This document shows positions 31,959 through 48,368 of a stretch of DNA of 64,000 bases, one piece after another. The notes under the pieces were generated by a model that was not told the DNA's origin, made no database searches, and saw only the letters and a list, made by a program, of their open reading frames with translations. Within the stretch, counting starts at the first letter, position 1; each line of letters begins with the position of its first letter. The position numbers and the translations under genes were made by a program. Source of the stretch: Stentor roeselii (Eukaryota; Ciliophora; Heterotrichea; Heterotrichida; Stentoridae); the NCBI GenBank assembly GCA_006503475.1, contig RSEH01000031.1, forward strand, positions 62,001 through 126,000, given 5' to 3'.

Positions 31959-33423
31959 ATGGAGACCAAGTGCATCATCATCCGACAAGCACTAAAAACT
32001 GCAATTAAAAACAACTACTTCTCTCGAGATCTAATTGATCGACTCAACAGCTTAAGAGGAATGATATTAAGAATGATCCAGACGAGTCTTCAGGCAGTCT
32101 GGATTGATTATATTCTAACTAATGTTAAAGCCTTCATCAGCTTAATGTCCTCCAGCCCTGCTAACATTGTTGATTCAAAACTAGAACTACTTGAAAAAGA
32201 AGTAATGGGTGGTTTATTGACAGGACTTAGCATACCTCCAGTTAACTTCGAAAGAATTTATTCTCAAGTAATAAATCAGTGCAGGGGAAAGCCTTAGCTA
32301 AGTGAAATACTTCCGAAGTTTCTAGGACACTACTTAAAACTGACAATTAATAACCAATTCCTTGCAAAAAATGACTTCGAACTTAATATTTCACCGATAT
32401 TTATCTGCTTCCAAGTTCCTTACAACTTTTACGTTGAAGGTATAGCGAATAAGCATTTCGGCAACAGTTTAAATTACGATATGTCAAAGCTTGATGATTT
32501 TTTATCTTTTTTCTTCGGTTCATTAGAAAACTACAAGTTTTACGTAAAAATCGCAAGAATAGTAGAACCTTTCAAAATGAATATTGAAAAAAAATTCTTT
32601 CCATATGATTACAATATCACCTTAACAGTTCTCAGCAGGCAATACACAGGAATAATGAACACCCTGGTTCAAGGCCAAGCATTTCCCATAAGCCCAATCG
32701 GCATAGTCACTCAAAACAGTCGAAACGATAATCTCGTAATATTTGGAAGGCATCCAGAATCAGACATAGTTTTTCCTCCAGATGAAAAAATGATTGACTA
32801 TGTTGCTTTAATATTTCTGAATTTTTCTGATAATGTCTATGCAATCGACGTTTCCAAAAAGGCCAATATTGGTATGAAGCTAGAAGAAAAAAAACTTTAT
32901 CTTCTTTTAAAAGGATCTTTGATTAATATTGCGAAAACTCAAACTTTTCATATAGAGGATATTAAAATGAACTCTGGGGGTTGAAGATGCAGGGGAAAGT
33001 CCTTTTAGTTATGTATATGAAGATGATAATGCTGTTGTTGATTCTCATGTTATTCTTGATTTTATTGAAGGGAGTTATCAAGGGAACAAGTTTTCTTTAA
33101 CTACCAAGACGAGAGATCCTTGCAATAAAAAACTAGTTCATACTTTTGGATGTGGAGGTGGAGGCGAAAGTCCAGATTTTTTTATTCCTAGAGAATCAGG
33201 AATCGGTAAGAAACATCTTGAGTTTAGATTTGACTCTGTCACGAAAATATGGAGTATGTTTGACCAGGGATCAGTTAATGGGACTTATTTTCTATTGAAG
33301 AATCTTGAAGAGTATCGAAATAAAAAATATTCTGGTTTATATGGTATTTTTGATGAAGTCAAACCTGGTGCATTCAAAACTCTTTTGGTTGGGATGTATA
33401 TCTTTTTTCTGGTAATAAATTGA
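31959..33423 (+). pseudogene. double-FHA gene, array copy 2, broken
   Basis: It aligns end to end with copies 1 and 3, but is interrupted by an in-frame TAG near 32295 (between CRGKP and LSEILPKF, where the intact copies have Leu-Arg or Ala-Arg) and by a one-base frame shift at a G run near 32970. After that the third frame continues (VEDAGESPFSY ... FFIPRESGIGKKH ... SVNGTYFLLK) to a TGA at 33421. No 15-nt intron explains either break. The rest of the sequence is well preserved, so the decay looks recent, or the breaks are assembly errors. In FHA2, SRKH has become GKKH. Confidence 0.8.
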
Positions 33424-35917: not shown

Positions 35918-37453
35918 ATGGAAACAGTGTGCAACAGCATCTGTGAAGATTTAAAATTGATCTTGAAGCAAAGAAGTCTATCTCAAGATCAAGAAGCCCG
36001 ATTCAAAAGCTTAAAAGGAATGGCTTTAAGATTATCAACCTCAGAAATTAAACTAGAATGGATTGAAAACCTGTCTAATCAAATCAAAGCCTTGAAAGAA
36101 AGTAAAAGTTGGAATATCGAACCTGATCTTCTTAATCTTGAAAAAAACTTCCTCTTAGGACTTTTGTCACCTTTAGAAATACCACCGAAAAACTTTGATG
36201 ATTTTTATAGTCAAGTCCTCAAAGAAAGCAATCAATATCCAAAAATATGCGAAATCTTTCCAAAAATTCTATCAAAATATTTAAAAAACAAAATCAATAC
36301 AGAAAAAATATCTCAACTAGACTTTAAGCACATTATTCAACATATTTTTCAAATTTATCATGTTCCTTATAATTTTTATGTTGAAAATCTTGAATTCTGG
36401 TGCTTCAACAAAAAGTATAATTATAAATTGTCAAGATTGGAAGAATTTTTGTTACTTTTTTTCGGGTCTTCAAAGAATTATAAGTTTTTTGTTAGAATCG
36501 CAAGAGAAATTGACCTGTACAAAAATATGTGTTTTTATGAAAATCCTTACAAAATAACTTTAACACGTATGAGCAAATCGTACATTGGCTCAAACAATAC
36601 TTTAGAATTACAAAAATCTTTTGAGGTAAAACATGATATCAGTGTTAAAAAATATAAATGCCCCCAACTTGTAACATTTGGAAAGCATCCGGAGGCTGAC
36701 ATTGTATTTCCACCTGATGATAATACAATCGATCAGGTTGTATTGATTTTAATGAATTTAAATGATAATATTTATGCAATTGATGTAGGAAAAAAAACTT
36801 CAACCAGTTGTATGTTAACAGGGCAAAAAGAATATGATGTTAGAGAAGATATGATAATAAATCTAGCCAAAACTCAATTTCTTCATATCGAAAGTATTAA
36901 ATATATCGATGAGGATGAATCATCTTTAGAAGTTAAACAGTTTAATCCAAATCCTGAAAAAGTAGATATCTCTGACAATGAATCTTCATCAGAAATTAAA
37001 CAGCAAGACCCAAATCCTGATCAAATAGATTATTATTCAACTATAGAAAACTTCGAGAAAAATTTTGAATCTCGCATCACTTTAAAAAGTATAAAAGGAT
37101 TTTATAATCAACAAAGCTTTCCCTTCCAAACACAATTAAAAAACGAAAAATCCGTTTTCAGAATATGCAGAGGAGGAGAAAATGGAGGTCCAGATCTATT
37201 TTATCCAGAAGAATCAGGAGTAAGTGGCCATCATTTAGTACTCGCCTTCAATAAAAAATGGACAATACAGTCATTCGGTAAAAACGGTTCATACATACTC
37301 TTAAAATCATTTTCCGAATACGAAAACAAAAAAGTATCAAAGCTAATTCCAATTCTAGAAAATCAAGACTCATCATCACCATCATCTCCAAATTTCCGAT
37401 ACCGCATCATTCTAATAGGTCTTTACTTATTCTACATTGAAGAAAACCACTAA
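35918..37453 (+). CDS. double-FHA protein, array copy 4 (divergent)
   Basis: A 511-residue protein, the most divergent copy. The N-terminal module and FHA1 are recognisable (VPYNFYVE, GKHPEADIVFP near residue 255). The linker is longer, about 345-385, and contains a short internal duplication (SSLEVKQFNPNPEKVD and SSSEIKQQDPNPDQID). In FHA2 the phosphopeptide-binding SRKH is replaced by SGHH and STNGS by GKNGS, so the key Arg is lost and binding may be altered. The stop codon TAA lies in the first unit of the telomere-like repeat at 37450. Confidence 0.85.
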   Translation: METVCNSICEDLKLILKQRSLSQDQEARFKSLKGMALRLSTSEIKLEWIENLSNQIKALKESKSWNIEPDLLNLEKNFLLGLLSPLEIPPKNFDDFYSQVLKESNQYPKICEIFPKILSKYLKNKINTEKISQLDFKHIIQHIFQIYHVPYNFYVENLEFWCFNKKYNYKLSRLEEFLLLFFGSSKNYKFFVRIAREIDLYKNMCFYENPYKITLTRMSKSYIGSNNTLELQKSFEVKHDISVKKYKCPQLVTFGKHPEADIVFPPDDNTIDQVVLILMNLNDNIYAIDVGKKTSTSCMLTGQKEYDVREDMIINLAKTQFLHIESIKYIDEDESSLEVKQFNPNPEKVDISDNESSSEIKQQDPNPDQIDYYSTIENFEKNFESRITLKSIKGFYNQQSFPFQTQLKNEKSVFRICRGGENGGPDLFYPEESGVSGHHLVLAFNKKWTIQSFGKNGSYILLKSFSEYENKKVSKLIPILENQDSSSPSSPNFRYRIILIGLYLFYIEENH

Positions 37454-37494
37454 CATCTTAACACCTTAACACCCTAACACCCTAACACCCTAAT
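37450..37494 (+). repeat. interstitial telomere-like repeat (CCCTAACA)n
   Basis: About five and a half 8-nt units: CTAACATC, TTAACACC, TTAACACC, CTAACACC, CTAACACC, CTAATA. The last three repeat starts match CCCTAACA and the first ones differ by C-to-T changes. The tract fills the spacer between the FHA copy 4 stop codon (which it contains) and the BUD23 start at 37499. I recall CCCTAACA as the heterotrich (Blepharisma) telomere repeat. Confidence 0.88.
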
Positions 37495-37498
37495 AAAA

Positions 37499-38320
37499 AT
37501 GAGCCGACCCGAACAAGTAGCCCCAGCTGAGTACTTCTACGATTCAACAGAAGCCGAGAAGTACACATCGAACACACGAATCATTGAAGTGCAAGCCCAC
37601 ATGTCCCAAAGAGCAATCGACTTGCTTCAGCTTCCAGAGCCTGGCAGTCTAATTCTCGACCTCGGCTGTGGAAGTGGCTTAAGTGGTTCAGAGCTTTCAG
37701 ACCAGGGGCACTTCTGGGTGGGTCTCGACATCAGCCCGTCAATGCTTGAAGTGGCCTTAGACCGAGAAGCCGAAGGCGACCTTCTCTTATCAGACATCGG
37801 GCAAGGTTTCAACTTCCAAGCAGGTGTTTTCGACGGTTGCATCAGTGTCTCTGCCTTACAATGGCTGTGCAATGCAGAAAAGGCCAGCCACAACCCATTC
37901 AAGCGATTTGCTCGTCTTTTTGACAGTTTATATAAGGTGCTCGCGCGAGGCGCGCGAGCTGTTTTTCAGTTTTACCCTTCTCATCCTTCCCAAATCGAGA
38001 TAATCACGCAAGCTGCTGTCAGGGCAGGGTTTCTGGCAGACCTCATTGTAGACTTTCCAGAGTCGACTAAAGCGAAGAAGTATTATTTGGTTCTTCATTC
38101 TGGCAGCAAAGTAACTTCTTACAACGCGAAACCTTTGCAAGATGGAGACGAGGTAAAAGTTAGTAAAAGGAAAAACTTGAAGACTGGGAAAAAAAATAAA
38201 CATGTGAAGACAAAGAGCAAGGAATGGATTCTTGTCAAGAAAGAAAGACAGAGAAAGCAGGGACAGAATGTGAGACCTGATTCGAAGTACTCTGGAAGGA
38301 AGAGAAATCCGATGTTTTAA
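37499..38320 (+). CDS. BUD23: 18S rRNA (guanine-N7) methyltransferase BUD23/WBSCR22
   Basis: A 273-residue SAM-dependent methyltransferase of normal family length. The N-terminus RPEQVAPAEYFYDSTEAEKY is diagnostic of BUD23. Motif I is ILDLGCGSG (52-60), followed by GLDIS (motif II), SVSALQWLCNA and the FPESTKAKKYYLVL segment. The C-terminus is Lys-rich and nuclear/nucleolar-targeting in type. It methylates a conserved G of 18S rRNA in the small-subunit precursor with TRM112 as partner. The base composition is visibly more GC-rich than the FHA array beside it. It contains a GC hairpin at 37939. Confidence 0.96.
   Translation: MSRPEQVAPAEYFYDSTEAEKYTSNTRIIEVQAHMSQRAIDLLQLPEPGSLILDLGCGSGLSGSELSDQGHFWVGLDISPSMLEVALDREAEGDLLLSDIGQGFNFQAGVFDGCISVSALQWLCNAEKASHNPFKRFARLFDSLYKVLARGARAVFQFYPSHPSQIEIITQAAVRAGFLADLIVDFPESTKAKKYYLVLHSGSKVTSYNAKPLQDGDEVKVSKRKNLKTGKKNKHVKTKSKEWILVKKERQRKQGQNVRPDSKYSGRKRNPMF
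37939..37959. other. GC-rich inverted repeat inside BUD23
   Basis: GCTCGCGC and GCGCGAGC form an 8-bp perfect stem around a 5-nt loop. It codes for VLARGARAVF. It is preceded by TTTATATAAGG. Such a GC-only stem is out of keeping with the AT-rich surroundings. Confidence 0.8.
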
Positions 38321-47246: not shown

Positions 47247-48368
47247 ATGGACTACCAGACCCGACTCAACAACATTCTGAACAAACCTGGAAACAAGATG
47301 TGTGCTGATTGCAACGGACGGAACCCGAGATGGGCCAGCATTTCACTTGGAGTCTTTGTCTGTATTCGTTGCTGTGGTATGCATCGGGCGCTTGGAACTC
47401 ACATTTCAAAAATGAAGTCAACCACGTTGGACAAATGGTCTCCACAGATGTTTCATCTCTTCGAAACAGTGGATAATGAAATCTCAAATGCTTATTGGGA
47501 GGCCAACATGCCGAAAGGCTACAACAAGCCAGTCGAGAGTTCAGGAAGCTACGCGGTCGAAATGTTTTTAAGAGACAAATATGAGAGAAAGCTGTGGATC
47601 GGCGGAGGTCCAGACCCTTTGACACTTTCAAAGCAGCCTAAAAACTCAGACCGTCCTCAACTGAAATTGGAGAAAAAGGAAGAAAAAAGAACTTTGTCTG
47701 CAGGTCCTTTGGATGCAGATTTACTTTCAGACTCAACGCCACACTTACACTCTCATACAGCGAGTCATCTGCCACATCTGAGTGCATCAAGTCTACCGCT
47801 AAGCAAGACAGCTCCTCAAGTGAATCACTTGCACAGTCAGCAAGTGTCTTTTCCTCAGACAGTTCCTACTTACAACCAGAATAATGTCAACCTCTTCCCA
47901 AACAGCCAGCCCTTGAGTCAATTCCCTCCAACGACCGCCGCAGGCGGGAACTTCGGAAACCCGGTCCAGGTCCCGCCGATAACCCAGCCAGTCCCAGCCT
48001 TTCCCCAGGCGCCATTGGTTCAAGCAAGCACACCTCAGAGCTTCCAGGCTTTTCCTGCACAGAGCACCTACCCTCCTCAGAGTTACCCTCCTCAGAGTTA
48101 CCCTCCTCAGAACTACCCTCCTCAGAACTATCCTCCTCAGAACTACCCTCCTCAGAACTACCCTCCTCAGAACTTTAACAACCCTGGGTTTAATGCTCAT
48201 GCTGAAGCGGAAAAAAATATGAAAATCAACCAGGTGCTTTCAATGTACTCTTCACAACCTCCTCCTGCTCAGAATTCTGGAAGTACTGGGTTTAAACCTT
48301 TAGGGGCTATAGCTGCTCAGAACTTTTTTAATCAAGGAGGACATTCTCATCCTTACCCAACATTTTAG
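47247..48368 (+). CDS. ArfGAP (SMAP/AGFG-like) with Pro/Gln repeats
   Basis: A 373-residue protein. The ArfGAP domain fills about 5-120: zinc finger CADCNGRNPRWASISLGVFV with CIRCCGMHRALGTHIS next, holding the four Cys and the catalytic Arg. It stimulates GTP hydrolysis by Arf proteins in vesicle traffic. The remainder is a disordered Pro/Gln/Ser-rich tail with seven YPPQ units. The short-domain, long-tail plan is closest to SMAP-type ArfGAPs. The start context is TGTATAAATG. Confidence 0.93.
   Translation: MDYQTRLNNILNKPGNKMCADCNGRNPRWASISLGVFVCIRCCGMHRALGTHISKMKSTTLDKWSPQMFHLFETVDNEISNAYWEANMPKGYNKPVESSGSYAVEMFLRDKYERKLWIGGGPDPLTLSKQPKNSDRPQLKLEKKEEKRTLSAGPLDADLLSDSTPHLHSHTASHLPHLSASSLPLSKTAPQVNHLHSQQVSFPQTVPTYNQNNVNLFPNSQPLSQFPPTTAAGGNFGNPVQVPPITQPVPAFPQAPLVQASTPQSFQAFPAQSTYPPQSYPPQSYPPQNYPPQNYPPQNYPPQNYPPQNFNNPGFNAHAEAEKNMKINQVLSMYSSQPPPAQNSGSTGFKPLGAIAAQNFFNQGGHSHPYPTF
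48069..48173 (+). repeat. 15-nt minisatellite coding YPPQ(S/N) x7
   Basis: Seven in-frame copies of TACCCTCCTCAGARC with very few base changes, coding for YPPQS or YPPQN in the ArfGAP tail. The near identity at DNA level points to recent unit duplication. Confidence 0.92.

Follow-up and report, generated by a model that had tools for sequence, protein, structure and literature searches.

Telomere units at internal chromosomal positions have been described in several systems. In mammals, short interstitial telomeric sequences are made up of a small number of telomere units, exact or slightly diverged, that lie within the chromosome, and those of rodents and primates are described as having been inserted at double-strand breaks (PMC2246262). 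Plant telo boxes are telomere-unit motifs near gene 5' ends; one account places them in 5' flanks and in ribosome-biogenesis promoters, and models the insertion of telomeric units (PMC3022908). Telomere-like repeats are also mentioned inside macronuclear chromosomes of Oxytricha (PMC3558436), where both the repeat and the type of chromosome, the nanochromosome, differ from those considered here. A further system is that of Blepharisma stoltei, for which the genome report likewise gives CCCTAACA as the telomere unit (PMC9942806); Blepharisma shares with the present genome both this unit and a compact, gene-dense organization.

The window analysed here is a stretch of 64,000 bases (G000:C220:62001-126000) from an assembly of 44.4 Mb in 522 contigs, and it contains a telomere-type array in the spacer between an FHA-family gene and a gene for a BUD23-type methyltransferase (Table 1). 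Read directly, the spacer is CATCTTAACACCTTAACACCCTAACACCCTAACACCCTAATAAAA. The array is 43 bases in length and is made up of five 8-base units of TAACACCC type and a partial one, which together fill the spacer as the first-pass annotation had described. That annotation had also placed the upstream stop codon within the array, and this is correct, as the TAA at 37451-37453 is formed by the first, degenerate unit. All of the units run in a single direction; the array is degenerate on its left side and its 3' edge lies 5 bases ahead of the BUD23 ATG. Tandem Repeats Finder reports it at 37450-37493 with a period of 8, 5.5 copies, 91% matches and a score of 67, which ranks second among the 68 rows for the window, with only a 15-base array at 48068-48174 above it. 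The window reaches four consecutive units that each differ from CCCTAACA at no more than one position, whereas the maximum in each of 40 dinucleotide shuffles was one.

Table 1. Coordinates of the array, its spacer and the flanking genes (positions in the window).
Feature	Position	Strand	Content or evidence
Upstream FHA-family gene, 511 aa	35918..37453	+	Pfam FHA, E 2e-4 (22.1 bits, cut-off 20.7, partial); paralog alignment
Interstitial telomere-type array	37451..37493	+	Units TAACATCT, TAACACCT, TAACACCC x3, then TAA; C-rich strand on +
Spacer between the FHA-family gene and BUD23	37454..37498	.	45 bases, almost wholly array
BUD23-type 18S rRNA (guanine-N7) methyltransferase	37499..38320	+	Pfam WBS_methylT, 4.9e-16; homologs

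At the loci seen, arrays of CCCTAACA stand at contig starts in the + orientation and at contig ends in the − orientation, so the heterotrich telomere repeat named in the first-pass annotation is the right one for this genome. The window array aligns with the repeats of many contig ends over a length of 44 bases, at 93%. It is itself internal, lying at C220:99450-99493 on a contig on which matches extend to 187,563. As in the mammalian short interstitial telomeric sequences, the unit is thus identical to the terminal telomere repeat and the position in the chromosome is internal. We read the array as a short interstitial telomeric sequence, in which telomere units were put into the spacer during the repair of a break and were then altered, and we give this reading a probability of about one half. 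Taken singly, the locus is an ordinary member of this class, one of dozens of internal patches in the genome.

The most likely course of events would begin with a break in the spacer that was repaired with a few telomere units, either copied by telomerase or captured. Slippage would probably have lengthened or shortened the array afterwards, and point changes may have decayed it, here mostly on the left side. No independent function need be assumed for the array, which provides the upstream stop codon and the bases just ahead of the BUD23 start. The earlier suggestion of a telomerase-made patch at a break is retained as our leading reading in the broader form of a telomerase-made or telomere-derived patch; the insertion is a step that we infer. 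In this respect the patches differ from mammalian interstitial telomeric sequences, as they also do in the strong T bias of their left edge and in the multiplication of some of them in minisatellites. There was no second copy of the locus lacking the array among the scored candidates (40 of 96), and one scan for BUD23 relatives with DNA in viral contigs found none.

A telomere unit at the edge of a gene cluster, where the GC content changes, might be left by a past chromosome end, by the fusion of two ends or by their joining during assembly, and both a healed fusion and a shift in composition at the array had been proposed. The GC content does rise, from 0.30-0.36 in the four FHA frames to 0.47 in BUD23, but it drops again in the three genes that follow (0.36, 0.35 and 0.39). 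The change in composition is therefore local, reflecting one GC-rich gene and not a domain boundary. Two joined ends would face each other, whereas the array is short, has one orientation only and is degenerate at the left, and neither facing arrays nor broken genes are seen at the supposed join. Among the complete FHA-family genes of the cluster the upstream gene is the third, and in the alignment its C-terminus falls a few residues from the ends of two complete paralogs. BUD23, directly 3' of the array, has an intact N-terminus from the ATG at 37499: the MSRPE start is common to the 13 aligned BUD23 proteins (that of the window and 12 others); in one of the others the predicted protein has additional residues ahead of it. 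Homologs of BUD23 are found in public contigs at 84-72% identity. With a single direction, intact neighbours and a GC drop one gene further on, nothing points to a fused chromosome end, and similar patches are present at dozens of other loci; we consider a past chromosome end or any joining of ends at this site extremely improbable.

The other patches were located by pattern searches of the whole genome. The pattern for a pair of exact units whose left edge is broken at the T position gave 89 matches at 67 loci. Two of these loci stand at the start of a contig, and every one of the 30 retrieved matches, from 25 loci, is internal and has complete flanks of 1.5 kb; because closeness to contig starts was checked for the 67 loci and right ends for the retrieved matches only, the number of internal loci is inexact. 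Shifting the break one base leftward gave 12 matches, at least one of which is terminal and one of which is at a place shared with the 89-match pattern, and a break before the whole CCCTAACA unit gave nine, three of them internal. The right-edge pattern gave 32 matches, and among the 30 retrieved 18 are near contig ends and 12 are internal; the latter include the window site, and one other is in a long frame. The reversed patterns, used as controls, gave no matches genome-wide in any of the two-unit searches, and another 8-base unit of equal composition and its reverse gave no dimers genome-wide. The parsed sites (34) contain two units in 19 cases, three in six, four in four, five in two, seven in two and one in one, the window site being one of the two with five units; arrays near its length are found at C213:175046 and C196:76474.

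The empty controls bear on the most credible of the alternatives, itself unlikely, namely that the array is a microsatellite: a seed present by chance in a leader rich in C and A and poor in G would have grown by replication slippage, and its likeness to the telomere would be coincidental or would only aid its persistence. Leaders in the window are indeed poor in G (10.5% G and 17.2% C in the 60 bases ahead of the ATG of 43 frames). Other 8-base arrays occur in the window with up to 3.1 copies, units of two types are mixed within patches, and many patches lie within minisatellites, all of which count in favour of slippage. However, the absence of dimers of the same-composition units, against 89 matches for the telomere unit, indicates an excess peculiar to the telomere unit, and not one that slippage produces generally in spacers rich in C and A. 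The dimer of the T-type unit is also rarer, with 14 matches on ten contigs, and on eight of the ten it coincides with a place of the 89-match pattern.

No long flanks common to different loci were seen, the longest match being 74 bases at 70%, and on partial inspection many of the flank matches appear to come from the patch itself. This favours the view that the patches arose separately many times. A dispersed element with shared flanks was considered and rejected, as only short or weak matches were found between loci. At 13 of the 67 loci there are several matches within 500 bases, so local duplication also makes copies. Two-unit patches spaced by about 40 to 127 bases, in a minisatellite-like arrangement, were observed at L049-L051, at L069-L071 and for matches on C268, C232 and C135. 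A known RNA gene at the patches, telomerase RNA included, was rejected on the basis of Rfam scans: that of 39 loci returned three tRNAs only and no telomerase RNA, from a library that may contain no heterotrich telomerase RNA, and that of the window returned nothing. Two of the tRNA genes stand in a row near a telomere-type patch (L055:987-1276) and the other is in L048.

The edges of the patches are not what a simple insertion would give. The base ahead of the first TAACACCC is T in 77 of the 89 matches and at 58 of the 67 loci, set against an assumed background T frequency of 0.40 (our own figure). Where the edges were parsed (27 sites), T precedes the first unit in 23; the last unit is followed by T in 20 and by A in seven, and G comes after this T in 12. 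Units of the T type are followed by units of the C type (TAACACCT with TAACACCC) in 26 matches at 23 loci, the loci having been counted by hand, and the swapped order is found in 14 matches; a strict order from T type to C type was accordingly rejected, the preference being a mere tendency. The mixed units at 23 loci and the T-biased left edge both count against simple insertion, as random flanks predict neither. A fixed T edge could be given by telomerase copying to a fixed template end or by a binding site, whereas random insertion with random flanks would not give it.

This lineage adds telomeres en masse during macronuclear development. A more specific reading, which we regard as decidedly doubtful, is that the patches are direct DNA copies of the telomerase RNA template, synthesized at spacer breaks in a single non-processive pass or in two, and that some of them, including the window array, still seed telomere addition upon macronuclear fragmentation. 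Were this so, the nearly fixed left edge, with T ahead of TAACACCC (or GGGTGTTA and then A when read along the G strand), would mark the template end plus one base, and the telomerase RNA template would be expected to read TTAACACCCTAAC. If the patches are telomerase copies, the genome preserves a record of past telomerase action on internal breaks, from which the telomerase RNA template can be predicted; if they seed telomere addition, the choice of site in chromosome fragmentation becomes testable.

The window array might also act by itself as a putative macronuclear seed for telomere addition, either as an alternative telomere-addition site or in the manner of a yeast SiRTA, and so cap a fragment that carries BUD23. 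Judging the geometry from the sequence alone, the lower strand GGGTGTTA runs 5' to 3' leftwards; after a break on the FHA side this G-rich strand would end 3' leftwards and could prime telomerase. The B. stoltei report counts 46,705 potential alternative telomere-addition sites (PMC9942806), and TG-rich internal seeds of yeast are reported to act likewise (PMC8012806). The Blepharisma sites are defined by telomere-bearing reads, whereas the repeat here is built into continuous assembled sequence. We consider a seeding role for the array very unlikely.

The patches are concentrated outside long frames: three of 35 distinct sites (L039, L056 and L057) are within them, compared with a frame coverage of 71% in the window (frames of at least 150 aa; binomial p 2e-14). 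With these three dropped beforehand, 32 sites remained for orientation, five of which were undecided and were left out. The 3' side of the C-rich strand faces a gene start at 19 of the 27 decided sites and a gene end at eight (two-sided p 0.052), and among spacers between tandem genes those whose genes run in the direction of the array outnumber those whose genes run against it by 12 to 3 (p 0.035); both counts rest on hand-made assignments from frames and Pfam matches, some of them on short frames. These figures, and the position of the window array immediately ahead of the BUD23 ATG, are consistent with a telo-box-like cis-element, a patch in the 5' leader that would be bound by a telomere-motif protein and would aid transcription of the downstream gene, here BUD23. 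BUD23 is a ribosome-biogenesis enzyme, and the plant telo boxes described above offer a parallel.

We nevertheless think such an element rather unlikely. The orientation bias is weak, and the lower content of G than of C ahead of gene starts could alone yield part of it; patches also occur between converging genes (L011, L047, L064 and L074), and within the window the BUD23 spacer is the only one with at least two telomere-type units. None of the 30 flanking proteins scanned (E 1e-4) has an accepted match to a ribosomal or translational Pfam family. The 17 with a Pfam match belong to diverse families: LRR, ankyrin/SAM, B-box, 3-dehydroquinate synthase, short-chain dehydrogenase, ubiquitin, RCC1, Ras, methyltransferase, PX, glutathione transferase, S1/P1 nuclease, CH domain, WD40, metallophosphatase, Piwi and SAPS. 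For the WD40 protein of L074, the matches to several propeller families, the ribosome-assembly protein WDR3 among them, are weak and all under the Pfam cut-offs; the Ser/Lys-rich protein of L073 has no Pfam match. BUD23 therefore does not mark a class of ribosome genes here, and a ribosome-gene telo box as a property of the group was rejected once the neighbours had been read, BUD23 being the only such case seen. The patches differ from plant telo boxes in this lack of ribosome-gene enrichment among the scanned neighbours and in consisting of tandem units, mostly two to seven at the 34 parsed sites. The single-unit motif TTAACACCCTRA gave 362 matches compared with 14 for its reversed control, the only control that was not empty. 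As a promoter word TTAACACCCTRA was rejected, because 16 of the 20 retrieved TTAACACCCTGA sites are in frames that run open through the site for 250 bases or more (hand count).

In the titles and abstract openings searched, mostly of non-subscription literature, we found no description of interstitial telomere patches in heterotrich spacers, and we do not claim that none exists.

Three further features of the window were observed. In the FHA cluster, an additional copy lies at 31959-33414, after the first complete one and before the second. It is interrupted by a TAG within the match, and its later part continues in another frame; on its sequence, it may be either a pseudogene or a gene with tiny introns. 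The array at 48068-48174, the strongest tandem array of the window, has seven copies of its 15-base repeat with a 94% match and lies inside a 373-aa frame (47247-48368), so it probably encodes a five-residue protein repeat. The 43 long frames of the window end in TAA in 27 cases, in TAG in 12 and in TGA in four, TGA thus being rare as a stop.
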